Source: Akkermansiaceae bacterium (GTDB lineage: Bacteria > Verrucomicrobiota > Verrucomicrobiia > Verrucomicrobiales > Akkermansiaceae). Taken from it: a stretch of 32,020 nucleotides of DNA. Positions 5,078 to 17,036 of the stretch are shown here, piece by piece. Each line of letters begins with the position of its first letter. The first letter of the stretch is position 1. The translations under genes were made by a program, and so were the position numbers. The stretch spans positions 1-32,020 of the forward strand of contig JAQWZU010000126.1 of NCBI GenBank assembly GCA_029253285.1, read 5' to 3'. A model generated the notes under the pieces. It ran no database searches and had not been told where the DNA came from. It saw nothing but the letters and a program-made list of their open reading frames with translations.

Positions 5078-6252
5078 AATGGTTTGCGTTCGTTATGATG
5101 GTCGTCGGGTGTCTTGCCCGGGCGGAGGAGGTCTCTCCGGTGGTGATTGGGCGGAAGATTTTCATGGATACCAGTTTGTCCCAGCCGGTCGGGCAGGGGT
5201 GTGTGTCCTGTCATGATCCGAAGGCGGCCTTCGCGGATGCGCGCCGGGTGTCGCCGGGAGCGGTGAATGAACGGAAAGGCCGACGGAATGCGCCGACCTT
5301 AATGTATGCCGCGCTCATTCCGCCGATAGCGGCGGAGGATTTTTATGATGAGGAAGGGGAGTTGATTTATGTTCTGGAGGGAGGCTTGTTCCTTGATGGA
5401 CGGGCGCACGATCAGTTCGAGCAAGTGCAGATGCCGTTCTTTAATAAGGATGAAATGAACCTGTCCGGCCCGGCGGATTTGGCGGACCGGATTCGTAAAT
5501 CGGAATATGCCTCGGATTTCAAGAAGTTGGTTGGCGGGAAGGTCTGGGGGAATGACGGGAAGTTGGTGGATCAGGTGTATCATTCACTGGTGGCCTTTTT
5601 GCGGGAGCCCATGTTTCGTCCTTTCAATGCGCGGATTGATGATTTCTGGAAAGGTGATGTGAAGGCGCTGAATGACTCCGAATTGCGGGGGCTTGCGCTT
5701 TTTCAAAGCAAGGCGGGCTGTGCGCAGTGCCATCCCCTCGGGGTGGGAACCTGGCCGGAGCCGCTTTTGAGTGACTTTGGGTATGATAATCTCGGCGCGC
5801 CTTCGCTCGGAGAAGAGGATCCGGGCCTCGGAGGGGTTTCGGGACGAAAGAATGAGATGGGTCAATTTCGCTCACCGACTTTGCGGAACATCGCGCTGAC
5901 AGCGCCTTATCTGCACAATGGTTCAATCAAGACGCTGAAAGAGGTGATGGAGTTTTATAACAAACGCGATGTCGAGCCGGAGCGTTGGGGCAAGACTGAT
6001 TTTCCCGAGACAGTGAATCACGACGATATGGGGGATTTAAAGCTGACGGATCAGGAGGTTGATGACTTGGTGGCCCTGATGCACACCTTTACCGATAAGA
6101 ATCTCCTGGAGATGAAAGAGGGCGATGAGCTTCCAAAGACACCGGAGGGAGTGCCTTCGACGGAGTCGCGGAAGGCCTTTTTCCAGAATCGGCCACGGCT
6201 CGTCGATCCCAAGGCGAAACAGCGGGTGCCGGAGGAGAAGGTGGATGAATGA
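5074..6252 (+). CDS. Di-heme cytochrome c peroxidase family protein
   Basis: A 392-residue periplasmic protein of the CcpA/MauG di-heme group. A signal peptide of about 17 residues (MKWFAFVMMVVGCLARA) precedes the mature chain. Two c-heme motifs are present, CVSCH (residues 43-47) and CAQCH (216-220). Family landmarks are IGRKIFMDTSLS, RNAPTLMYAAL, FLDGRAHDQFEQVQMPF and, after the second heme, FRSPTLRNIALTAPYLHNGS with TLKEVMEFYN. Canonical members reduce hydrogen peroxide; MauG-like members oxidise protein or small-molecule substrates, and the sequence alone does not settle which. About 50 residues after the domain form a charged, proline-rich tail. It is coupled by ATGA overlap to the Tat-exported sugar isomerase-like gene, which suggests a shared periplasmic task. 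Confidence 0.9.
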   Translation: MKWFAFVMMVVGCLARAEEVSPVVIGRKIFMDTSLSQPVGQGCVSCHDPKAAFADARRVSPGAVNERKGRRNAPTLMYAALIPPIAAEDFYDEEGELIYVLEGGLFLDGRAHDQFEQVQMPFFNKDEMNLSGPADLADRIRKSEYASDFKKLVGGKVWGNDGKLVDQVYHSLVAFLREPMFRPFNARIDDFWKGDVKALNDSELRGLALFQSKAGCAQCHPLGVGTWPEPLLSDFGYDNLGAPSLGEEDPGLGGVSGRKNEMGQFRSPTLRNIALTAPYLHNGSIKTLKEVMEFYNKRDVEPERWGKTDFPETVNHDDMGDLKLTDQEVDDLVALMHTFTDKNLLEMKEGDELPKTPEGVPSTESRKAFFQNRPRLVDPKAKQRVPEEKVDE

Positions 6253-6431
6253 TTCTCGGGCTGCGGCCCCGCTCTATATCAGAGGGCGATGTCTAATTTT
6301 GAGGGCGCGTCGTTGAGATTGTTAGGTTAGTTAATGAGCCAAATCATTAGTGGAGGGGCATGTTGATCGATTTGAGGTAAAAATACTTGTAGTGCCTGCA
6401 TGTTTTTGGTAAACAAAAAAGTGCTATAATT

Positions 6432-7103
6432 ATGAAAAACACAAAAACGATGATTTTAGGGGCCTTTGCCGGGTCTCTGATGACCACTCAGGCGGCGGTA
6501 GTCTCTTGGGGTGCCGTTGGTTCAGGGATCCAGTCTACCGATCTTATCGAGAGTGGAAGCCCTTATGCCGCTATTAATGGAGGTGCAGACCCCGCAAGTA
6601 GTTTCACGATCGGGACCAATGCCTTTACGGGCGGGGGATTTGTGGCTGGGGCACCTGGCGGTGTAAGTAATACTGCCGGTACGTTTTACGCTCCGGTCAC
6701 TGATAACAGTAATCTTGACATTCTCATGGACAGTCACACTTACATTACGGGTGCGAATCCCAATGGAGTCGGCGTAGTGGCTATACCGGTGACTGTAGGA
6801 AATGCCTACGACGTTCAGTTCATTGGCGTTGGTGATAGTCGTGGTTGCTGTTCAGGCAGGGCTCAAAACGTTAACGATGGCAATGGAAACATCAGTGGAG
6901 ATTTGATCCGGGGGAATGGTAATTGGGTCGTTGGGAATTTTGTTGCAGACACTGAGCTCCAGCAGTTCTTCGTGGCCGGTGAAACTGATCCGGGTCTCAG
7001 TGGCTTGATCGTTCGCGATCTTGGTCCTGCTATTCCCGAGCCCGGTTCAGCTTTGCTTTCGCTGGTTGGACTTCTTGGATTGACCGCTCGCCGTCGCCGA
7101 TAG
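6432..7103 (+). CDS. PEP-CTERM exported protein with RGCC domain
   Basis: A 223-residue exported protein. Residues 1-21 form a signal peptide (MKNTKTMILGAFAGSLMTTQ then A). The C-terminus is a tripartite PEP-CTERM signal: PEP at 202-204, a hydrophobic helix, then four arginines. It is therefore expected to be processed by an exosortase, which is not in the window. The body, residues 22-200, is one domain shared with the N-termini of the two large proteins encoded at 7167-12308 and 12386-14611. Shared marks are LDILMDSHTY, VQFIGVGDSRGCC (Cys139-Cys140) and, near the end, DPGLSGLIVRDL. I do not recognise a named family for it. No good Shine-Dalgarno is visible; ATG at 6432 is chosen because it gives the signal peptide. 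A strong terminator follows at 7120-7155. Confidence 0.85.
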   Translation: MKNTKTMILGAFAGSLMTTQAAVVSWGAVGSGIQSTDLIESGSPYAAINGGADPASSFTIGTNAFTGGGFVAGAPGGVSNTAGTFYAPVTDNSNLDILMDSHTYITGANPNGVGVVAIPVTVGNAYDVQFIGVGDSRGCCSGRAQNVNDGNGNISGDLIRGNGNWVVGNFVADTELQQFFVAGETDPGLSGLIVRDLGPAIPEPGSALLSLVGLLGLTARRRR

Positions 7104-7119
7104 CCTTTCCCAAATTCTC

Positions 7120-7155
7120 AAACCGTGGTGCTGTGAATGGCACCACGGTTTTTTT
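7120..7155 (+). terminator. Rho-independent terminator after the PEP-CTERM gene
   Basis: A perfect 12-base-pair stem, AAACCGTGGTGC (7120-7131) with GCACCACGGTTT (7140-7151), has an 8-base loop and runs into seven T residues (7149-7155). It begins 17 bases after the PEP-CTERM stop. In the opposite direction the stem is not followed by a T tract, so it should act mainly on + transcripts and would also separate this gene from the convergent CotH gene, which ends at 7167. Confidence 0.9.
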
Positions 7156-7166
7156 GTGCTGTCGTT

Positions 7167-10100
7167 CTACTGCTGGGTTGCCATGAGTCTGACGAAGGCC
7201 TGAATCTTAATGCTCATGGGCGAGGCGCTGCGGTAGGAGACGGTCGCGGTGCCATCGAGGTTGTCGCTTTCGGAGAGGAAGACCAACTCGGTTTCGGTAT
7301 CCCAGGTGACCAGGTCGTATGAGAGTTGTGGAATCAGGGTAACGGCATTTTGCGTGTAGAGGTTTCTCTCGAAGGTGATCACGTAATAGTCATCGGTCTC
7401 TTCGCCTACGGTGAGTGAGGTGGCGGAGGTGTCGATTTTTGTCTGCGCATCTCCAAAGAGGAGGTCGCTGGTTCCGAGTCCGTACTCAAAAAGGGCGGAA
7501 TAGCGATCGCCGTCATCGTCTGCGGTGCTGTCACCGACAAAGCCGGCTTCGGTTTCTGATCCGGGAGCTCCATTGGGATTGTTGGAGCCGATCCAACTGG
7601 TAGCGAGACCGTGATCCGGTATGGGCAATGCCGGGGATTTCAGCACGAGAGTAAACGAACTACCGTCGGCCAGAGGCCAGGGGAGATCGTCGTCGTAGGT
7701 GAAGTTGTGGATCGCGATATCATTGGCATCAAGGAGGATGAGCTGTTCGCCCTCGTTGGCGAGGCGTCCGCTGTAGTCATTGCTGCCGAGAACATCGTTG
7801 GCGATATTGACAGTGCCTGAGAGTCCGGGATAGCGGGCGTCGAAGGCGGCTTTGTTTTTCACCAGAACCAGACGCCCTCCGGGAGCAATCAGGGTGTTGT
7901 CGGCGAAGGCGAAGGTGATGCCGAGGGTAAAGCGGACATTGGTTAGATCAATGGTCGACGTGCTGACGTTCATGAGTTCGATAAACTCGTAGTCATCGCG
8001 ATCGGTCGAGGTTGCCAGTTCCCCTGGAGTGGAGGGCTCACCGGGATGATAGTTTATTTCGGAGATAACCAGGTTGCTCGCGTCAGCTGGCACGGTATCC
8101 GGAGTGAAGAAAGCGGTATTGAGCGCACTCCATTCCGCGGTGGCGCTATTGTAAGAACGAGAGAAGAGCCAGCCGGGTTCGGTGAGAGAGAGAGGGTCTG
8201 ATGAGTGGGTGTCACCACCGCCCACGCCGGGAGGGAAGCCGGTGAGGTCGAGATCGAAGCTGATGTCCGAACTGCTAGAGGAGGCTTGGTGAATTTCGAC
8301 GGCAATTGTGTTGGAGCCGCTGACGAAGGTGTTAGGAGACAAGCTGATTGAATCTGTGTCGTTATCATCACTGGTGGTTCCAGCGTATTCATCAAAGGAG
8401 GGATTGTTTCCCAGGTTCTGACCATCGACGCGGTTGCCGTTGACATAGACGACAATGCCATCGTCGTAGACATAATTTAGAGTGAAGGTTTCAAAGACGG
8501 AAGGGTCGCCGATATTGATGGTGGTGCGGAAGTAGGTAGTGGCATTTTTTTGATCTCCATTTGTGCCGGGATCGATATCGATAAAATCGACCTCGGTGGT
8601 TTCATCACCATCACCGTATCCCAAGGGAGAAGCTCCGGAATCCCATGAGGCATCATTGAATCCTACTCCCCGCCAGGCGGTGCCTTGGTCGGAACCGTCG
8701 TCGAGGTAACTCCAAGTGTGGCCGCTTTCAATATAGCGGGTGGTGGTGGGGCCACCGACTCCACCGCCGTCACCCAGAGTGACCAAAGTGGCAGAGGGAC
8801 TTATTCCTCCGCCGACAAGGCGTGGGTCGAGGGAGTGTGCGTAGTCGGTGAGGTCATTGTCACCATCTCCGAAGATGTAGTAGACTTTGTCTACGGTGGT
8901 CGGGGTGATGAAGGAAGGACCGGAGCCGGCAGGGATGGAGCCACCATGCTGACTGTAGGTCGGTGCGGCAAGATCAGGGTAGAGGTTGGCCGAGCGGAGG
9001 CTGCTTAAGAAGAAATCTGGTCGGTCGGGGAACCAGTCACTGACGATGCGATTGTATTCGCCCTCCCAGTCGCTGAGGGAGCGGTTGCCGCCATGTTGAT
9101 CTCCCCAGCGTGCTGCTTCGGGGTTGAGGATGCTCCGGTGATCGGCGGTGACTTCTTGGTAGCGGGCCAGGGCCGCGGCGGGAGTGAGAGCGCCGTTGTT
9201 GAAAAAGGCGCGGTGGACCCGGTCACCGAAGCGGAGACGGAATTCCGGGCTGTCTTGTAGTCGGTCGTTGGCGGCGGCGATGCCGCTGTAGTTGGTAATG
9301 CGGTTGTAGTTTGTGTTGGAACGAAGGAAGAGGGACCATTCGGAATCCCACATGAAGTATTTGTAGCCGTGACGCGGAGCCTGGGACTGAATACCGCCGT
9401 AGTAGTTTTTGTTGGGCCAGTCGCTGTTGCCGCCATACCAGTTGGTGATGAAGTAATCGGCATTGTTGGAAGGATCACACCAGACGGGGAAGCCGGCATT
9501 GCGGGTGCCATCGGGGTTGAATCCGCAGGCTTTTAAGAAAGCGGCGTCGCGTTGAAGGTTGGTGCCGGAAATCTCATCGACGGCAGAGCGGAGGCTATTC
9601 CAGTTATTGAGATTGGTAGAGCTGTTAATGGGAGTGCCTGAATTTTGACCTTCCCATTCATCGCGGACGGCATCCTCGATATAGCTTTCGGCGAAGCTGG
9701 AATCGGGACGCTCGACGACGTTGTAGAGTCCCCAATACACGCCGTTGATGTAGAGATGGAGGTAGCGGCCGTGAGGGGCTGGTTGGCCAAGGGCGAGCTG
9801 GGTGCGGCGGCCAAATTCATCGCGGGCGTATTGCGGTTGGCTTCCTGCGCCGGACCATTGCCAGCCGTCGTTTGATTCCATACGGAAAACGAGAGTTTGG
9901 AATTCCCGGGCGACTCCGGGTTCGGTGCCGAAGAGAGGGAACTTGAGCGATCCAGGACCGTCGGTGGGTTGGTTGCTGGTGCCGTATTCCGATTTGAAGA
10001 GGACGCGGAAGGACTTCTTGCGAGTGAGGCCGAAGCTTCGGAAGGCACCGCCTTGGATTCTGATGGCGCAGTTTTGTTGGAAGTTGCTGTCTCCAGTGGG

Positions 10101-12308
10101 GTCGTCGGGATCGACGAGTTCGAGAGATGTTTTGCGCTCCCACGAGGAGCCGGATGAACCAGGATTGGAGTAGATCCCGGAGGAGCCGAACATGTCGTCA
10201 ACATCCATCGCGATCGAAAGGCTGGGGACAGTGGTGAGGTCATCCTCCATGGTGGGATGGGTATCGGGGTTGGCATTGGAATTGTTGTTCATGCCGTAGT
10301 AGGGAGATTGTCCGTCCCAACTTGCAGGGAGACCGTAGAGGCTCTGCGTGTTGGCGTTCGTTTGATCGAGCACCGTGCTGGGGATGATGTAGGTGTGGGT
10401 GTCAGTGTTAGTCGAGACGTAGCCGGAGCGATAGCCGATGGCCTTGACGGCCATGGAGCGGTTGACCGTGATCGGGCCGGTGTAAATTGTGCCGCTGGTT
10501 TCGCTGGGCCAGCTTCCGTCGGTAGTGTAACGGATGGAGGCGCCAGGAGTGGCGGTTGAGATGGTGAGTGAGAAAGTGCTCCCGAAAATTCCGCGGGAGA
10601 CGTTGAAGATGGTGTCGGCGACAAATCCCGAAACGCCATTTCCGCTTGCGTTGGATCCATCAGGGGTGGGATTGAGAAGAAAGCCCACCTGAAGAGGATC
10701 GCCGAAGAAGCCATAAGAGATGTTTCCTTTCTGGTCTGGGTAGTCCGTGGTGCCAAATTCCGAAAGGACGGTGGTGCCATCCGGGCTGACGAGAGCAAGG
10801 TATTCCCCATTGGCGGAGAGTTTGAAGTTGGTGTGGAGTTCGTCGCCATTGGTGGGGCGGCGATCCTTACTGGAGGCGAAGATGAGAAGGTAGCCGTTTC
10901 CGGAAATCGAGACGTTTGGGAATTGCCACTTGGTGAGCTGGTCCGGGTCATCGGTGAGGTAGTATCCATTGAGGCTGATCGACCCTCCGTCGGGATTGTG
11001 AAGTTCGACCCAGTCCGAGGTTTCGCCATCTTCATCCTGAAGGCTGGAGGCGTTGGGGTTGGCGAGGAATTCGTTAATGCGAAGTGAGTTTCCCACGACG
11101 GTGAGCGAGAAGGTCTGCTCGATGGACAGCCCGGAGAGATCGCTACTGCGGACGCGGAAATTGAGCGTAGAACCGAGGCCGGGTAAGGCGGCGGCGGTTT
11201 GGAGAGTGTTGCCGGAGATCGTGAAGGAGGCGTTGTCGATATCACCTGCACCGGAGACAAGCTGATAGCTGTGAGCGTCGGCGGTATTGGGGTCCTCGGT
11301 GGCGAAGTCGGCGACGGTTGATCCGGAAGGAGTGCCGAGGAGAACGGTATTTGAGGGGAAGGAGAGTGCGGTGGGTGCCATGGCCGCTTCGACACTGAGG
11401 GTGAGCGTCTCCTCGTAAGTAAGGGTGTCGGCGTCGGTCGTGCGGAGACGGAGAGAGTAGCTGGCACCGAAGCTACCGAGAGAGGAATCGGCACGGAGCT
11501 CATCACCGTTGGTGATGGTGAAGAGGTTGTTGTCAGGGAAGTTTCCGTTGTCGACGAAGCTATAGGTATGGTCGTTGTCACCGTTGGGGTCGGAAGTAGT
11601 TAGCGTTCCGATGAAGGTGCCTGCGGCAGAGTCTGGTGCGAGGTCGGTATTGCTGAGTGCGATGTCGGTGGGTGGCTGGGGAGTGGGTGGTGCGGTAGCG
11701 CGGAGAATGTAGGCGCTGAGGCCGGGATCTACTCCGTCATTGACCCCGCCGAGGATGTTGATCGTTTGAGTGGTGCCGCCGGCCGTGAAGGCTCCGATGA
11801 CCGAGCCTACTCCGCTGCGGGAGAAATCGTCGCTGATATTCTCGGGTGATTCGTCGTCTCCGGCCCGTTGATTCCGGGAGGAACAACAGCCCCGGGTGTC
11901 GGCTGCCCCAATGAGTTGAATTTGATAGTCTGCACCTCCGGTGAGTCCGGTAAGTTGGAAAGTCCATCCCCCTCCGGCATAGGAGTGGCTGTTGAGGACG
12001 GTGTTGAGTTGGGGATTGCCAGAGTCGCCTCCTCCTCCGGTGAAGAAAGTTCCCGTGTTGGTATTGCTGGGAGCGATTGCCTCGGCTGCAAAGAGGATGT
12101 TTTCTCCACCAATGTTTACGGTTGTGCTGTCTCCGTCGCTCGTTGCGTTGACTGCTTTGACGAGAGTTCCGTTGGTATCCACCTGATTGGCATTGGTAAG
12201 ATTGAAAGTGGGTTGCCAGGCGATTTCAGCGGCAGATAGTAACAAGGCGCTGGAGTTCAAAGAGGCGATGAGAACCAGTGGAAGGTGGCGCCGATGGAGT
12301 TTTTTCAT
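7167..12308 (-). CDS. Giant exported multidomain CotH-kinase protein with RGCC domain
   Basis: A 1713-residue exported protein. Reading from the N-terminus: signal peptide (about 1-27); RGCC domain (about 28-205, with DTRGCC at 137-142); two cadherin-like repeats (about 210-305 and 312-405); a lamin-tail domain starting LRINEFLANP (about 408-520); a chitobiase/hexosaminidase C-terminal-like module (about 565-640, RYTTDGSWPS); a CotH kinase-like domain (about 690-1110, with YLHLYINGVYWGLYNVVERP and YKYFMWDSEWSL); a jelly-roll beta domain (about 1215-1355, TYFRTTINIGD then VYVNGNRV); a second lamin-tail domain (about 1408-1545, NLVISEINYHPG); and a C-terminal beta region. CotH proteins in spore formers phosphorylate coat proteins; the activity of this exported version is inferred. 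No PEP-CTERM or other anchor is seen. It lies 77 bases downstream of the 741-residue gene on the same strand, with a hairpin between. Confidence 0.88.
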   Translation of the reverse strand: MKKLHRRHLPLVLIASLNSSALLLSAAEIAWQPTFNLTNANQVDTNGTLVKAVNATSDGDSTTVNIGGENILFAAEAIAPSNTNTGTFFTGGGGDSGNPQLNTVLNSHSYAGGGWTFQLTGLTGGADYQIQLIGAADTRGCCSSRNQRAGDDESPENISDDFSRSGVGSVIGAFTAGGTTQTINILGGVNDGVDPGLSAYILRATAPPTPQPPTDIALSNTDLAPDSAAGTFIGTLTTSDPNGDNDHTYSFVDNGNFPDNNLFTITNGDELRADSSLGSFGASYSLRLRTTDADTLTYEETLTLSVEAAMAPTALSFPSNTVLLGTPSGSTVADFATEDPNTADAHSYQLVSGAGDIDNASFTISGNTLQTAAALPGLGSTLNFRVRSSDLSGLSIEQTFSLTVVGNSLRINEFLANPNASSLQDEDGETSDWVELHNPDGGSISLNGYYLTDDPDQLTKWQFPNVSISGNGYLLIFASSKDRRPTNGDELHTNFKLSANGEYLALVSPDGTTVLSEFGTTDYPDQKGNISYGFFGDPLQVGFLLNPTPDGSNASGNGVSGFVADTIFNVSRGIFGSTFSLTISTATPGASIRYTTDGSWPSETSGTIYTGPITVNRSMAVKAIGYRSGYVSTNTDTHTYIIPSTVLDQTNANTQSLYGLPASWDGQSPYYGMNNNSNANPDTHPTMEDDLTTVPSLSIAMDVDDMFGSSGIYSNPGSSGSSWERKTSLELVDPDDPTGDSNFQQNCAIRIQGGAFRSFGLTRKKSFRVLFKSEYGTSNQPTDGPGSLKFPLFGTEPGVAREFQTLVFRMESNDGWQWSGAGSQPQYARDEFGRRTQLALGQPAPHGRYLHLYINGVYWGLYNVVERPDSSFAESYIEDAVRDEWEGQNSGTPINSSTNLNNWNSLRSAVDEISGTNLQRDAAFLKACGFNPDGTRNAGFPVWCDPSNNADYFITNWYGGNSDWPNKNYYGGIQSQAPRHGYKYFMWDSEWSLFLRSNTNYNRITNYSGIAAANDRLQDSPEFRLRFGDRVHRAFFNNGALTPAAALARYQEVTADHRSILNPEAARWGDQHGGNRSLSDWEGEYNRIVSDWFPDRPDFFLSSLRSANLYPDLAAPTYSQHGGSIPAGSGPSFITPTTVDKVYYIFGDGDNDLTDYAHSLDPRLVGGGISPSATLVTLGDGGGVGGPTTTRYIESGHTWSYLDDGSDQGTAWRGVGFNDASWDSGASPLGYGDGDETTEVDFIDIDPGTNGDQKNATTYFRTTINIGDPSVFETFTLNYVYDDGIVVYVNGNRVDGQNLGNNPSFDEYAGTTSDDNDTDSISLSPNTFVSGSNTIAVEIHQASSSSSDISFDLDLTGFPPGVGGGDTHSSDPLSLTEPGWLFSRSYNSATAEWSALNTAFFTPDTVPADASNLVISEINYHPGEPSTPGELATSTDRDDYEFIELMNVSTSTIDLTNVRFTLGITFAFADNTLIAPGGRLVLVKNKAAFDARYPGLSGTVNIANDVLGSNDYSGRLANEGEQLILLDANDIAIHNFTYDDDLPWPLADGSSFTLVLKSPALPIPDHGLATSWIGSNNPNGAPGSETEAGFVGDSTADDDGDRYSALFEYGLGTSDLLFGDAQTKIDTSATSLTVGEETDDYYVITFERNLYTQNAVTLIPQLSYDLVTWDTETELVFLSESDNLDGTATVSYRSASPMSIKIQAFVRLMATQQ

Positions 12309-12320
12309 GATGGAAAAGAG

Positions 12321-12351
12321 AAAATCAGCCCTCTCTATGAGAGGGCTGATT
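12321..12351 (-). terminator. Hairpin between the two large RGCC-domain genes (terminator or leader element)
   Basis: A perfect 13-base-pair inverted repeat pairs 12323-12335 with 12339-12351, with only three bases in the loop. Read on the - strand it is followed by TTTT and then a pyrimidine-rich stretch, so it could end transcription of the 741-residue gene. It also sits about 14 bases upstream of the CotH gene's ATG (12308), where it could instead act as a leader hairpin or attenuator controlling read-through. Confidence 0.6.
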
Positions 12352-12385
12352 GGTTGATATTGGGAAAAGGAGGTGAAAACCGTAA

Positions 12386-14611
12386 TTAGTTTTCGAAGAC
12401 CTTGAAGAATTGTTGGTCAGCCCCGGGGTTGGGATTCGGGAATTCATAGGTGGTGAGATCTCCGCCAGAGGGAACGGAATCGTTTACATCAGCATCGAAG
12501 ACACCCAGGTCGGTATTCGTGAAGACAGTGTAGGTCCTTCCAGGCTTGGAGGTCCAAACGAGGGTCACTCGATTCGTGTCTGTATTGTAACTGATGTCCG
12601 TGACTTTCAGCGGAGTGGTGCCGGCGTCGCCGAAGTACTCGATTTCACCCAGAGCGTGCAGTGTGCCGTCGCCCGTGGTGTTGACCTGGTAACGAATAAA
12701 CTTGTAACTTACCGCTGGTGTTTCGAGGAGAAAGAGGGCGGTTTGATTACGGGCAGTCCAAATTGCCGGGTTCGTGCTGCGATAAATAGTGGTGAAAGCT
12801 ACACCGTCGTCAGATCCCTGAATTTCCCATTCGACTGGGTCGCGAAGCGGGGAGTCGTTGCTGGAAGTCAGGGTAAAGTGAGTGATAGAGATGGGATCTT
12901 CGAATTCTACCGTGAGGTCCTGAGGCGGAGCGTCGCAGCACCACTTGAAGTGGCCTCCTCCAACATTGTTGTCGAAGACATCGAAGGCTCCTTCGTTCAA
13001 GCCACCCGCAGTCGCATCGGTAAAGAAGGATTTCGAACTGGAAGTGATGCTGACCCAGTTGAAGTTGGTGCCAGCGGTGCCTTCGGTATCAATGCCGTCG
13101 TTTTCAGGGTCGGTCAAGTCGCCTCCGAGAAGTTCGGGGAGGAAAGAGACCTCGGGAAGAGCGGTGAAGCTGCCTGGGTCGGTGGGGTCTGAGTTATTGG
13201 TGATTTCAAACCCGTCGCCGCGGAGGTCTTCATCAGTATCTCGGAGATGTGGATTGGTGCCAGTTTGGGTGGCGTTTAGAAAGGGAAGGTCGGGATTTTC
13301 CGCACCGTCGAGAAGCCCGTCGTTATCGGTGTCATTGTCGAGAGGATTTGTTCCGGTATTGGTCGCACTCACCCAAGCTCCAGTGTTGCTTTCGACACCG
13401 TCGAGGTAGCCATCATCGTCGGAGTCGTCGTCGGCAATGTCGGTGCCATTGGCGAGTTCGCTGCCGTTGGTAGAACCATCAGAGTCGAAGTCCTCATCCC
13501 TGTCGAGGGTCAGGTTGCCGTCTGTATCATCGTCGTTTGGATTGTAGCCAATGCCAACTTCCACGTCGTCGGGAAGGTTATCGCTATCAGTATCGGTAAC
13601 GTTAGGGTTAGAGCCTGTCTGGTTTTCATCGACGAAGGGAAGGTCAGGATTTTCGACGCCATCGGAGAGGCTGTCGCCATCGGAATCTCCAATGAGAGGA
13701 TGGGTGCCGGTGTCTGAGGTGCTATTCCAGATTCCGGTCTTTGTTTCGTCACCATCCAGAAGGGTGTCATTATCGGTGTCCTCGTCTGCTGGATCGGTCC
13801 CGGCAGCCTGTTCCCCAAGGTTGTCGAGGCCATCATTGTCTTCGTCTTCGTCACCATCAAGGATCAGATCCCCGTCGGAGTCATTGCTGTTGGGATTCAG
13901 GCCGTGAAGATTTTCCCAGCTGTTCGTGAGTCCGTCCAAATCGCCGTCCTCGGAATCGGGCAGTTCGATCACGACGATCCCGGAAAACCCGGCGTCGCTG
14001 TTGCCCGTTACGCCGCCAAGAGATCTCCAGAGGATGTTTTGGTTAACGGCGTCGGCAGTGAAGGTCCCTAAAACGCTGGCAAAATCGCCTCGCGGCATTT
14101 CAATTCCGGTGGTGTAGTTTCCCAACCCGTCATCGGGTTCGTAGGTCCGGCCTGCGCAGCAGCCCCGTGCGTCGGCGACTCCGATGAGCTGCACCTGGTA
14201 ATTTGTTCCCGCTTCCAAACCATTGATGGTCAGAGTGATTTCAGCAGGGTTCGCTCCGGTGTAGGCATGGCTGTCGAGAAGGGTGTCTAAATCGGCATCG
14301 CCCGTCGCTCCCGTGAAGAAACCGCTCCCGTGAGTCGGTCCAGTGGTCATGCTGGTGAGAATATTTCCGGTCCCTGCCGCTGCTGAGATTGTGAAGGTGA
14401 TGCCGTTGATCATGAGATCGTCTCCCGCACCTGCTCCCGTGGCATTGTTGAAGTCGAGTGCCTCGTGAATGATACTTCCCGGGGGATTCGAAATGTCTTC
14501 CGGAGCGGCGATTGAGAAGGCTGTGCCCCAAGTGATTTGAGAGCCCTGGGTTGCTATGGGCAGTGTTGCTAAGAACCCGAGTGAGAGGATTTTATATCGA
14601 GTGTTTTTCAT
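12386..14611 (-). CDS. Exported TSP3-repeat/discoidin protein with RGCC domain
   Basis: A 741-residue exported protein. A signal peptide (about 1-23, MKNTRYKILSLGFLATLPIA) is followed by the RGCC domain shared with two neighbours (about 24-212; ADARGCC with Cys151-Cys152; LDTLLDSHAYTG). Residues about 217-480 are thrombospondin type-3-like calcium-binding repeats, rich in D-x-D-x-D-G motifs such as DGDLDGLTNSWE and GTDPADEDTDND. Residues about 505-665 look like a discoidin (F5/8 type C) carbohydrate-binding fold with a second Cys-Cys pair (558-559). The last 70 residues form a beta domain with GRTYTVFTNTDL and a terminal QFFKVFEN. It is probably a surface or matrix protein that binds calcium and glycans. 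It lies directly upstream of the CotH gene, so the two may share a transcript. Confidence 0.85.
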   Translation of the reverse strand: MKNTRYKILSLGFLATLPIATQGSQITWGTAFSIAAPEDISNPPGSIIHEALDFNNATGAGAGDDLMINGITFTISAAAGTGNILTSMTTGPTHGSGFFTGATGDADLDTLLDSHAYTGANPAEITLTINGLEAGTNYQVQLIGVADARGCCAGRTYEPDDGLGNYTTGIEMPRGDFASVLGTFTADAVNQNILWRSLGGVTGNSDAGFSGIVVIELPDSEDGDLDGLTNSWENLHGLNPNSNDSDGDLILDGDEDEDNDGLDNLGEQAAGTDPADEDTDNDTLLDGDETKTGIWNSTSDTGTHPLIGDSDGDSLSDGVENPDLPFVDENQTGSNPNVTDTDSDNLPDDVEVGIGYNPNDDDTDGNLTLDRDEDFDSDGSTNGSELANGTDIADDDSDDDGYLDGVESNTGAWVSATNTGTNPLDNDTDNDGLLDGAENPDLPFLNATQTGTNPHLRDTDEDLRGDGFEITNNSDPTDPGSFTALPEVSFLPELLGGDLTDPENDGIDTEGTAGTNFNWVSITSSSKSFFTDATAGGLNEGAFDVFDNNVGGGHFKWCCDAPPQDLTVEFEDPISITHFTLTSSNDSPLRDPVEWEIQGSDDGVAFTTIYRSTNPAIWTARNQTALFLLETPAVSYKFIRYQVNTTGDGTLHALGEIEYFGDAGTTPLKVTDISYNTDTNRVTLVWTSKPGRTYTVFTNTDLGVFDADVNDSVPSGGDLTTYEFPNPNPGADQQFFKVFEN

Positions 14612-14774: not shown

Positions 14775-15986
14775 TCAGTTGCCGACACAAAATAGATGCT
14801 CCTTTCCCCGGAGAAACCATTGGCCGTTGACGATTACGGGGGAGGCGGAGAGGTCTTCGCCGAGAGACATTTGTGCGGTTTGTTTGTATTCCGCGCCGGG
14901 TTTGACAACGGTGATGATACCCTTTTCGGAGCCAAAGATGACGTGGTCTTGCATCACGACGAGGGAGGCGGAGTGTTCGCGGCCGATCTTTTGTTTCCAG
15001 AGGCGCTCGCCTTTTTGGGCCTGGTAACAGGAGCCGGTTCCTTTGTCGGAGACCACGAGGTAGTAGCCGTTGGTGACGACGGGGCTGGGGACGTAGGAGG
15101 GGTCCTTGCGAGTGTGCCAGACGACGTGGGTGTCGGTGACATTACCGCTGCCGGTGGGATCAATGGCCATCATGTGGAGGGTCGGAAAGCCGCAGGTCAT
15201 GTAGATGTATTTCCCGTCGTAAACCGGGGAGGCGACGTATTGATCGGTGGGGCCGTCGATGATCCAGTGCTGTTTGCCGGTATCGGGATCGTAGGAGGCG
15301 ACGCATTTGCTCCCGGAAATGACCAATTGGTTTCGGCCTTCAATAGTGCGGATGATGGGTGTGCAGTAGCTGCGGGTTTTGTTGGGGCGCGGTGTTTTCC
15401 AAATCGTCTTGCCGGTCTTTTTGTTGAGACCGACGAGGTAGGCGTCGCCGTCGTGATCGCCATTGACGATGACTTTGTCTTTCCAAAGAATCGGGCTGGA
15501 GCAATAGCCGTGGCGGCTTGAGAAGATACCGGGACGAACTTCCCAGACTTTTTTGCCCTCGAAGTCGTAGGCGGCGACGAACATGTCCTCTTTATCGAGG
15601 AAGGAAACATAGACCAGCTTTCCATCGGTGGCGGGAGTGCTGGAAGCGCGGCTGTTTTTGCGGTGGATCTTTTCGATGGGAGATTTGAGGACTGTTTGCT
15701 GCCAAAGCGATTTCCCGGTCTTGCGATCGAGCTTGAGGAGGAGGCGCTCGCCGGAGTCTTCATCGGCGGAGACGAGAAAAATGGCGTCGTCCCAAATGAT
15801 GGGCGAGGCGTGGCCGATACCGGGGATCTCGGTTTTCCATTTGAGATCTTTTTCGAGTGTCCAAGAGAGAGGCGCTTTCTTATCGGGGCAAATGCCATCG
15901 CCGCTTGGGCCACGCCAGCCGGGCCAATTGTCGGCGAGGAGGGATGTCGTGAAGCAGGCGAAGAGGAGAGTAATTTTTAGGTTCAT
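14775..15986 (-). CDS. Exported PQQ-like beta-propeller protein
   Basis: A 403-residue secreted protein. A signal peptide (MNLKITLLFACFTTSLLA) is followed by the NWPGWRGPSGDGIC opening typical of planctomycete and verrucomicrobial PQQ-like propellers. Repeats of the form D..TGK.LW are visible (DRKTGKSLWQQ, NKKTGKTIWKT, DPDTGKQHWII), each marking one blade. No heme motif or recognisable dehydrogenase catalytic site is seen, so it may be a structural or binding propeller rather than a quinoprotein enzyme. Its start overlaps the stop of the NHL-repeat gene by four bases, so the pair is translationally coupled. A paralogous propeller is encoded at 20477-21730. Confidence 0.85.
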   Translation of the reverse strand: MNLKITLLFACFTTSLLADNWPGWRGPSGDGICPDKKAPLSWTLEKDLKWKTEIPGIGHASPIIWDDAIFLVSADEDSGERLLLKLDRKTGKSLWQQTVLKSPIEKIHRKNSRASSTPATDGKLVYVSFLDKEDMFVAAYDFEGKKVWEVRPGIFSSRHGYCSSPILWKDKVIVNGDHDGDAYLVGLNKKTGKTIWKTPRPNKTRSYCTPIIRTIEGRNQLVISGSKCVASYDPDTGKQHWIIDGPTDQYVASPVYDGKYIYMTCGFPTLHMMAIDPTGSGNVTDTHVVWHTRKDPSYVPSPVVTNGYYLVVSDKGTGSCYQAQKGERLWKQKIGREHSASLVVMQDHVIFGSEKGIITVVKPGAEYKQTAQMSLGEDLSASPVIVNGQWFLRGKEHLFCVGN

Positions 15987-16978
15987 TTTGGAAAGTGGAG
16001 AAGACGGTGGTTCATGGAATCGGCGATCCAGAGTCCGCCTTTGGAATCGTAGCGGGCGCCGTGAGGGCGGTTGATCTTTGTGGTGAGAGGTGAGTCGCCG
16101 AGGGTCTTTCCGGCTTTGCCGGGAGAGCCGGCGAGGAGGTGGATCGTTTTCTCCTTCACTTTGTAGAGGCGGAGGCAGTGGTTATTGTCGTCGCTGATGA
16201 CGATGTTGCCTTCGGGGTCGAGAGCGAGATGCTTGGGGCCCTTGAGTTTGGCTTGCGGTCCGGGGCCGTTGTCGCCGGAGTAGCCTTTTTTTCCTGAGGT
16301 GTTGACGAGAGTGTGGATGCGACCCTTGAGGTCAACGTGGCGGAGGGCATGGCCTTCGCGGGAGGCGATGTAGACCGAGCCATCGACTCCGTAGACGGCG
16401 GCCCGAGGTCCGTAGAGGGGCGACTTGGTGGCCCTCTCACCGTCGGTAGGCTTGCCCCGCTTGCCATTCCCGGCGACGGTACGGATAAGCTTGGACTTAA
16501 GATTGATTTCGCGGATTTGGTAGTTCTTGAGATCGGCGATGAGGAGATGGGTTCCTTTGGGATTGATGGAGAGGGTATAGGGGCTTTTGAGCGGTGGGCC
16601 GGTAAATAAGAGGGTGGAGAGTTTGCCGGTTTTGGTGTCGATGACGCGGATTCGCCGGTTAAAGGTGTCGGCTAGGAAAAGGCGCCCGTCGGGATGGATG
16701 GCGAGGTCGTGCATGCCGTTGAAGCGACCTTTGGTGGCGGGTTCGCCATCGCCTTCGGAGACGTCGCCGAGTTTTTGTCCGCCGGGTGATTGGGAGCCCG
16801 CGATGAAGGTGAGCTTGCCATCCTGGTAGCGGAAGACGCGGTTGCCTTTTTGGTATTCCACTCCGAGGGCAGCTTCGTCTTTGTCAAAGACCACGGAGAA
16901 TGGTTCGGTGGTGCCGGTGATCTCGAGAGGTTTGGCGAAGGCTGGGGCTAAAAATAACAAGGGGAGAAAGAATTTCAT
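15983..16978 (-). CDS. Exported NHL/SMP-30-like beta-propeller protein
   Basis: About 331 residues. ATG at 16978 is chosen over an in-frame GTG at 16987 because it begins a clean signal peptide (MKFFLPLLFLAPAFA). The mature chain has repeated NHL-type blades: GRFNGMHDLAIHPDGRLFLAD, then VIDTKTGKLSTL, GPRAAVYGVDGSVYIAS, GPKHLALDPEGNIVISDDNN and, last, RPHGARYDSKGGLWIADSMN. Such propellers act as binding scaffolds or lactonase/esterase-like enzymes; nothing here decides between them. The stop overlaps the downstream PQQ-like gene (ATGA type), so the two propellers are probably made together. Confidence 0.85.
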   Translation of the reverse strand: MKFFLPLLFLAPAFAKPLEITGTTEPFSVVFDKDEAALGVEYQKGNRVFRYQDGKLTFIAGSQSPGGQKLGDVSEGDGEPATKGRFNGMHDLAIHPDGRLFLADTFNRRIRVIDTKTGKLSTLLFTGPPLKSPYTLSINPKGTHLLIADLKNYQIREINLKSKLIRTVAGNGKRGKPTDGERATKSPLYGPRAAVYGVDGSVYIASREGHALRHVDLKGRIHTLVNTSGKKGYSGDNGPGPQAKLKGPKHLALDPEGNIVISDDNNHCLRLYKVKEKTIHLLAGSPGKAGKTLGDSPLTTKINRPHGARYDSKGGLWIADSMNHRLLHFPK

Positions 16979-17036
16979 CAAGCTCACAGAACGGAGTTTG
17001 AGAATGGGATCTTTCTTTTCGGCAGAGAAGAGATGA

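Follow-up and report, generated by a model that had tools for sequence, protein, structure and literature searches.

Three neighbouring exported proteins of an Akkermansiaceae bacterium share a predicted malectin-like domain, and the smallest is encoded by a variable cassette

A stretch of 32,020 nucleotides from an Akkermansiaceae bacterium (GenBank assembly GCA_029253285.1, contig JAQWZU010000126.1; the whole stretch is called the window hereafter) carries three adjacent genes for exported proteins of 223, 741 and 1713 residues, which share an N-terminal domain with a pair of adjacent cysteines. This domain is predicted to adopt the malectin fold, and the smallest gene, which encodes a stand-alone PEP-CTERM protein, is a variable cassette exchanged between close relatives. 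On balance we consider it probable that these domains are surface-exposed, malectin-like glycan-binding modules with a vicinal-disulfide loop, diversified by recombination under changing recognition. The cassette behaviour of the stand-alone PEP-CTERM gene and the conversion of its domain into a neighbouring gene are new here and are the most surprising part of the analysis.

The small gene (6432..7103, + strand) encodes a 223-residue protein made up of one such domain (6492..7025, + strand; 178 residues modelled) and a PEP-CTERM sorting tail (7029..7097, + strand). Its cysteines, Cys139-Cys140 (codons at 6846..6851, + strand), lie in a D-x-R-G-C-C-x-x-R loop. The tail comprises a PEP motif, a hydrophobic stretch and a basic end and reaches 17.5 bits with TIGR02595 (cut-off 16); PF07589 gives 18.9 bits in a protein scan, below its threshold of 20.7, and 23.2 bits in a genome search. 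The CotH gene (7167..12308, − strand) specifies a 1713-residue exported protein in which the shared domain (11700..12233, − strand), with Cys141-Cys142 encoded at 11883..11888 (− strand), is combined with lamin-tail, chitobiase-C-like and CotH kinase domains, the last occupying residues 749-1089 (9042..10064, − strand; PF08757, 63.4 bits for a cut-off of 23.8). The TSP3 gene (12386..14611, − strand) encodes the 741-residue exported protein, which carries the domain (13961..14545, − strand, delimited by sequence alignment; Cys151-Cys152 codons at 14156..14161, − strand), Asp-rich TSP3-like repeats and an F5/8-type-C (discoidin) domain at residues 522-648 (12668..13048, − strand). The latter contains a second adjacent pair, Cys558-Cys559, in a KWCC motif (12935..12940, − strand). 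The repeats were read from the sequence, a Pfam scan of this protein giving no TSP3 match.

The three open reading frames and the positions of their cysteine pairs are as a first-pass annotation of the window had described them, and the copies do align well beyond the short motif. The 223-residue protein, used as a query against the window's own genome, retrieves the 741-residue protein with an E value of 7.5e-18 and the 1713-residue protein with 1.2e-13, along 198-200 residues. Some 180-195 residues of the three N-terminal domains can be aligned at about 30-39% identity, and the trimmed alignment contains 31 invariant columns, among them W, SHxY, Y-x-x-Q-x-IG-x-x-D-x-RGCC-x-x-R and DxGxS. One further clear copy is found in this genome (contig C173, E 1.3e-15), and its homologue in another genome, at locus L076, is a CotH protein.

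AlphaFold2 models cover the domains of the small protein and of the CotH protein, with mean predicted local distance difference test scores (pLDDT) of 88.0 and 93.6, respectively. The small domain is best matched by the C-terminal domains of Bacteroides GH2 beta-glucuronidases (Z 13.1, root mean square deviation (rmsd) 2.8, 137 residues). The CotH-protein domain reaches Z scores of up to 12.4 with these bacterial domains, and human malectin ranks first for it, CBM22 and CBM35 modules falling to about 7.5. The crystal structure of human malectin scores 12.3 against the small domain (144 residues) and 12.7 against the CotH-protein domain (147 residues), and the malectin-like domains of plant ANXUR/FERONIA receptors score 10.4-12.7 over the two models, up to 12.7 for the small domain. 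Bacillus YXIM (2o14) is also a good structural match, with Z scores of 11.6 (small domain) and 11.5 (CotH-protein domain).

At the sequence level the link to malectin is indirect. None of the three window proteins reaches the cut-off of the Pfam family Malectin (PF11721), and searches of solved structures with three family alignments (A3, A5 and A7) yielded weak matches to fibronectin and one streptococcal surface protein, with a best E value of 0.012. Two relatives nevertheless bridge the gap: family members in TSP3 proteins of related genomes (loci L090 and L032), which also match the RGCC family, score 23.1 and 26.7 bits as whole proteins for a Pfam Malectin cut-off of 23. In profile comparisons by hhalign, the RGCC profile matches the alignment of these bridging copies (A7) at 96% probability (E 3e-9), and the latter matches malectins of the same phylum at 95% (E 2e-8). 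A 69-row alignment which includes the bridge matches malectins at 58% (E 1e-4), and the direct comparison scores 20.2, against at most 13.7 in 20 shuffled controls. Because the models give Z scores of 12-13 with malectin-type domains and the bridging relatives reach Pfam Malectin, the domain is, as modelled, not an orphan fold but a distant malectin-like subfamily of a known one. The first-pass annotation had put no family name to this signature, which stands in so far as the domain lies outside every Pfam and NCBIfam model; the idea of a fold without described relatives fell to the structure comparison set as its test, which matched malectin for both models, and to the two bridging loci, one of which passes the Malectin cut-off narrowly. 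At each of these loci a single protein carries many TSP3 repeats alongside several malectin-like domains, and some of these domains have ERCC or ESCC in the same loop.

The small gene differs from its surroundings in how it varies within the genus. When the window is compared with two close relatives (G017 and G002; G000 denotes the genome of the window), DNA identity is 45-71% from 6250 to 7072 (+ strand), the gene itself reaching only about 50%, and about 95% in the flanks, the ends of this cassette being approximate as identity was computed in 100-base steps. The domains of the small proteins are only 43-46% identical to those of G017 and G002, and the neighbouring TSP3 and CotH proteins are 93-97% identical. 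The allele of a third relative, G005, resembles that of the window (76%). In the domain tree, small genes of this class A (G000, G005, G003, one of G007, and NP75) form a starred clade, and those of class B (G017, G002, G026 and the second of G007) group with lower support (84/67). Since G007 possesses both classes, with class B at another place, the two may represent paralogues, either of which can occupy this locus.

Domain sequence has also moved between neighbouring genes. In G003 the domain of the TSP3 protein shares 88% identity with that of the small protein, with which the domain tree pairs it (100/97), but only 35-39% with its counterparts in the TSP3 proteins of the five further genomes in the comparison; outside the domain, this protein and its orthologues are 64-89% identical. 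The G003 pair shows 28 successive codons without any difference, and its DNA is 87-98% identical along 180 columns but 55-77% identical thereafter, which points to an older transfer overlaid by a recent conversion. Thus the G003 TSP3 protein received the domain of the small protein, partly through a recent conversion tract.

Variation of this kind could be a general property of PEP-CTERM proteins. The window's genome encodes an exosortase (PF09721, E 1.6e-35, at G000:C188) and 38 PEP-CTERM tails above the cut-off; the control set drawn from it covered 33 stretches, yielding 32 proteins, plus the window gene, and that from G002 covered 31 of 35 places in 30 stretches, yielding 30 proteins. Identity is 82% or higher in 13 of the 19 reciprocal pairs and 71% in one colinear pair; two pairs have no DNA match in the compared stretches. 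Three of the 19 show the cassette pattern, namely the RGCC gene and two loci that encode unrelated ectodomains (L156/L185, at G000:C59 and G002:C26, and L161/L187, at G000:C45 and G002:C58), whose proteins are 40% and 55% identical. In these two, flanks and tails are mostly 83-100% identical and the middle 30-75%, and neither ectodomain matches the RGCC family profiles. Not every PEP-CTERM protein is therefore subject to swapping, and the RGCC domain is not the only one that is. A similar control with G005 (10 of 20 places, nine proteins plus the known small gene) gave six pairs, too thin a set to use: two clear orthologous pairs (89% and 94% identical), the small gene (81%) and three pairs (37-54%) that may not be orthologous.

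Within class A, the window and G005 alleles differ mostly by amino acid replacements. The non-synonymous (dN) and synonymous (dS) divergences of the small gene are 0.122 and 0.095, a ratio of 1.29 compared with 0.12 for CotH (p 1.4e-12 for the contrast of replacement and silent changes); as frames were read from the preceding stop, the whole-gene counts for this pair and for class B include codons ahead of the start. Replaced codons are clustered, 28 of the 41 in the domain lying in residues 44-82 and 114-134, RGCC loop included, and no 40-codon window was equally dense in 5000 shuffles. The two segments, which hold 41 replacement and two silent nucleotide changes (14 and 10 in the rest of the domain), were picked after the data had been seen; only the window permutation allows for that choice, and it tests clustering, not selection. 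Replacements in loops (24) and elsewhere (17) were not significantly skewed in a loop-versus-strand test (p 0.29).

The same pattern could mean that the small protein serves as a polymorphic receptor that faces phages or tells self from non-self and in which, as with myxobacterial TraA, the identity of the allele outweighs any soluble sugar. The replacement of an ectodomain between conserved flanks, the occurrence of the two allele classes across more divergent genomes, the clustering of replacements in one pair and the two further PEP-CTERM loci with the cassette pattern all agree with it. We nevertheless regard a receptor as rather unlikely: the case is built on a handful of draft genomes, and the CotH and TSP3 copies of the domain are hardly polymorphic among close relatives (93-99% identity). 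Equally tentative is the broader proposition that the genus has a surface-variation system in which PEP-CTERM ectodomain cassettes, including a vicinal-disulfide malectin-like lectin, are swapped and converted between neighbouring genes. If it were true, each lineage would acquire a recognition type of its own, directed against phages, grazers or non-kin.

A more prosaic possibility is that the domain is a structural spacer, and that the apparent swaps reflect relaxed constraint or errors of metagenome assembly. All genomes are indeed drafts, and PEP-CTERM proteins in general may vary. This is improbable, as class B is found in two genomes at one place with domains 93% identical to each other, dN/dS between the classes, with dS saturated, is close to 0.3, most G000-G002 control pairs are as conserved as described above, and the cysteines and the core are retained.

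The cysteine pair is best viewed against the whole family. Neither Pfam nor NCBIfam has a model that covers the domain, whether in the window proteins, in the members of alignment A5 or taken alone; NF038129 and other PEP-CTERM models match the small protein weakly, below their cut-offs except for the tail model, and are absent for the domain alone. Searches started from the three window copies find it in 30 of 58 related genomes (E <= 0.001), a broader profile finds matches in 22 genomes of a phylum-wide sample of 240, and a contig scan with two short alignment patterns, one of them RGCC-containing, retrieved 20 loci, all from Verrucomicrobiota (19 by title). In viral contigs, none of 51 pattern matches was confirmed as the domain. 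The prediction of a coherent unnamed family is thus borne out, as is that of PEP-CTERM or CotH partners, which are frequent among relatives: copies are combined with PEP-CTERM tails, CotH with lamin-tail domains, TSP3 repeats, CBM9 or laminin-G. No publication on the domain or its variation was found among titles and the beginnings of abstracts, in a search partly too broad to exclude one.

What does not hold is the definition of a 190-residue domain by its cysteines. The constant core of the wider family is G-x-x-Y-x-(I/V)-Q followed by D-x-R...R, and one and the same site is taken by RGCC, RSCC, ERCC or CC-free loops (69 rows, hits of at least 50 bits). Counting copies that cover at least 110 model positions, from which exact repeats and substrings were removed and near-identical copies remain, CC is absent from 53 of 105 and present in 52, once outside the loop (L105, 469-643). 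RGCC is one variant and was rejected as the family signature.

Weak alignments place the D-x-R-(G)-C-C-x-x-R loop at the F-A-E-x-aromatic-aromatic loop of malectin, whose proposed sugar contacts are Y67, Y89, Y116, F117 and D186 (passages of PMC7783096). In the Xenopus malectin chain (numbering offset 27), Y116-F117 lie in the aligned loop; Y89 belongs to the TERY strand that precedes it and by the same alignments would correspond to the Y of the family's SHxY. Among copies with CC in the loop, 50 of 51 have no other cysteine (36 of the 53 CC-free copies have none at all), so that within the domain the pair can bond only with itself, although it might instead form an inter-chain bond. The 741-residue protein has four cysteines in all, one adjacent pair in each of two domains, and the KWCC pair of its discoidin domain is kept in six of six copies, its own included. 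Vicinal disulfides contact sugar in the arabinofuranosidase 1wd4 (parts of PMC12102755) and in the levan-oligosaccharide-binding SusD protein Bt1762 (parts of PMC7782687). The sequences suggest that the Cys-Cys pair most likely forms a vicinal disulfide.

This was one of the roles first proposed for the pair; another, a redox or metal site, gained no support. It could invoke the invariance of H82, C119 and C120 in all 27 rows of the RGCC subgroup and is quite improbable, since a DLRSCC subgroup has CC but no such His, a third cysteine is usually missing from the domain, and the close homologues L027 and L029 lost the CC as a pair along with a shortening of the loop. Inter-chain disulfides that cross-link surface-layer proteins, which the usual lack of other cysteines and a motif common to three exported neighbours might suggest, have just as little to commend them, as the cysteines are always adjacent and never single, and two adjacent pairs in separate domains, the only four cysteines of the 741-residue protein, suit vicinal disulfides better.

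The favoured reading can be put together as follows. A malectin-like beta-sandwich at the cell surface would, most likely, bind glycans, be they from exopolysaccharide, from neighbouring cells or from algal detritus. Its D-x-R-(G)-C-C-x-x-R loop would occupy the place of malectin's Tyr-Phe ligand loop, and the disulfide between the adjacent cysteines would most likely offer a rigid flat patch to a sugar ring. The small PEP-CTERM copy is the fastest-varying unit, whole ectodomain alleles being swapped between close relatives via conserved flanks and tail, and domain sequence has also been copied between neighbouring genes. We propose that recombination diversifies the modules because the target recognised, or the recogniser, changes; a changing ligand, phage or neighbour is the most likely selective reason. 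Directly observed are the shared domain, the malectin-like fold of the models, the replacement of the cassette, a conversion tract and, in one genome pair, the clustering of replacements; glycan binding, the disulfide, the contact it would make with ligand and the selective agent are inferred.

A number of observations weigh against this. As to the fold, the small domain scores only 10.2 and 9.5 with nuclear magnetic resonance structures of malectin, and up to 10.1 with CBM22; Foldseek E values are no better than 1.3e-3, yet malectin is listed second. None of the 18 family members in A5 matches Pfam Malectin, and direct profile comparisons with malectins are weak (E 0.002-0.02 and probability 2.5-13.5% for A5; E 0.007 and 5% for A3). 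As to the binding site, malectin's aromatic residues are not conserved in the family, the RGCC loop has no aromatic pair, CC aligns about two positions after that of malectin, and many members lack CC. As to selection, the whole-gene dN/dS of the small gene (1.2-1.3) has a bootstrap interval of 0.74-2.07, which includes 1. The replacement excess over neutrality is weak (p 0.017 and 0.020 for the post hoc segments, 0.12 over the domain), its local form rests on the one pair G000-G005, and no excess is seen in the class B pair G017-G002 (domain pN/pS 0.29). Finally, in G020, G021 and G010 another gene takes the position of the small gene after CotH.

The cluster itself recurs in the genus. A copy of the domain is found at E < 1e-50 in 11 of 27 same-genus genomes searched, own included. 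The TSP3 gene stands beside CotH in G000, G017, G002, G005, G003, G020, G013 and G007, and the small gene is found at CotH in G000, G017, G002, G005, G003, G026 and G007, several contigs in this comparison ending early. The body of the CotH protein is 65-97% identical among same-genus genomes. Between G021 (L067) and G003 (L061) it is 95% identical and the RGCC domain 80%, which suggests domain exchange in the CotH gene too. In the window, the TSP3 and CotH genes run in the same direction with 77 bp between them, and the small gene is convergent to both, so the trio is not a single operon. Genes for a PQQ-type propeller and an NHL-repeat protein (14775-16987) lie upstream of the TSP3 and CotH genes and are co-directed with them, a four-gene operon being possible. 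The di-haem peroxidase gene that adjoins the cluster lacks about 700 bp in L064 (G005:C127, about 250-600) relative to window 5285-6000, through either a deletion or an assembly fault.

The analysis provides a family outside Pfam and NCBIfam with a predicted fold and with a binding site that can be tested. It suggests that in a bacterial malectin-like domain a Cys-Cys pair has taken over from the aromatic platform for sugar, and the swapping of cassettes points to strong selection on surface display in little-cultured bacteria. Compared with malectin (PF11721, CBM57) and plant ANXUR/FERONIA, the window domains are alike in predicted fold and, for malectin, by weak alignment, in the position of the D/E...R loop after a G-x-x-Y-x-(I/V)-Q strand; they differ in having no PF11721 match and a Cys-Cys pair in place of the loop's aromatic pair. 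The malectin-type domains at the C-terminus of Bacteroides GH2 beta-glucuronidases (6d8g, 5uj6, 6ed1) are likewise bacterial and provide the top structural match of the small domain, but they are attached to enzymes, whereas the window domains are fused to CotH or TSP3/discoidin modules or stand alone with a sorting tail. With PEP-CTERM/exosortase surface proteins, without which Zoogloea resiniphila does not form flocs (PMC9012009), the small protein has its tail in common and the genome its exosortase, although the ectodomain family is without an NCBIfam model. The likeness to myxobacterial TraA, reported to be a polymorphic surface receptor, is put forward as a hypothesis: both would be surface proteins with a C-terminal sorting tag and strong polymorphism, of which the polymorphism was examined here.

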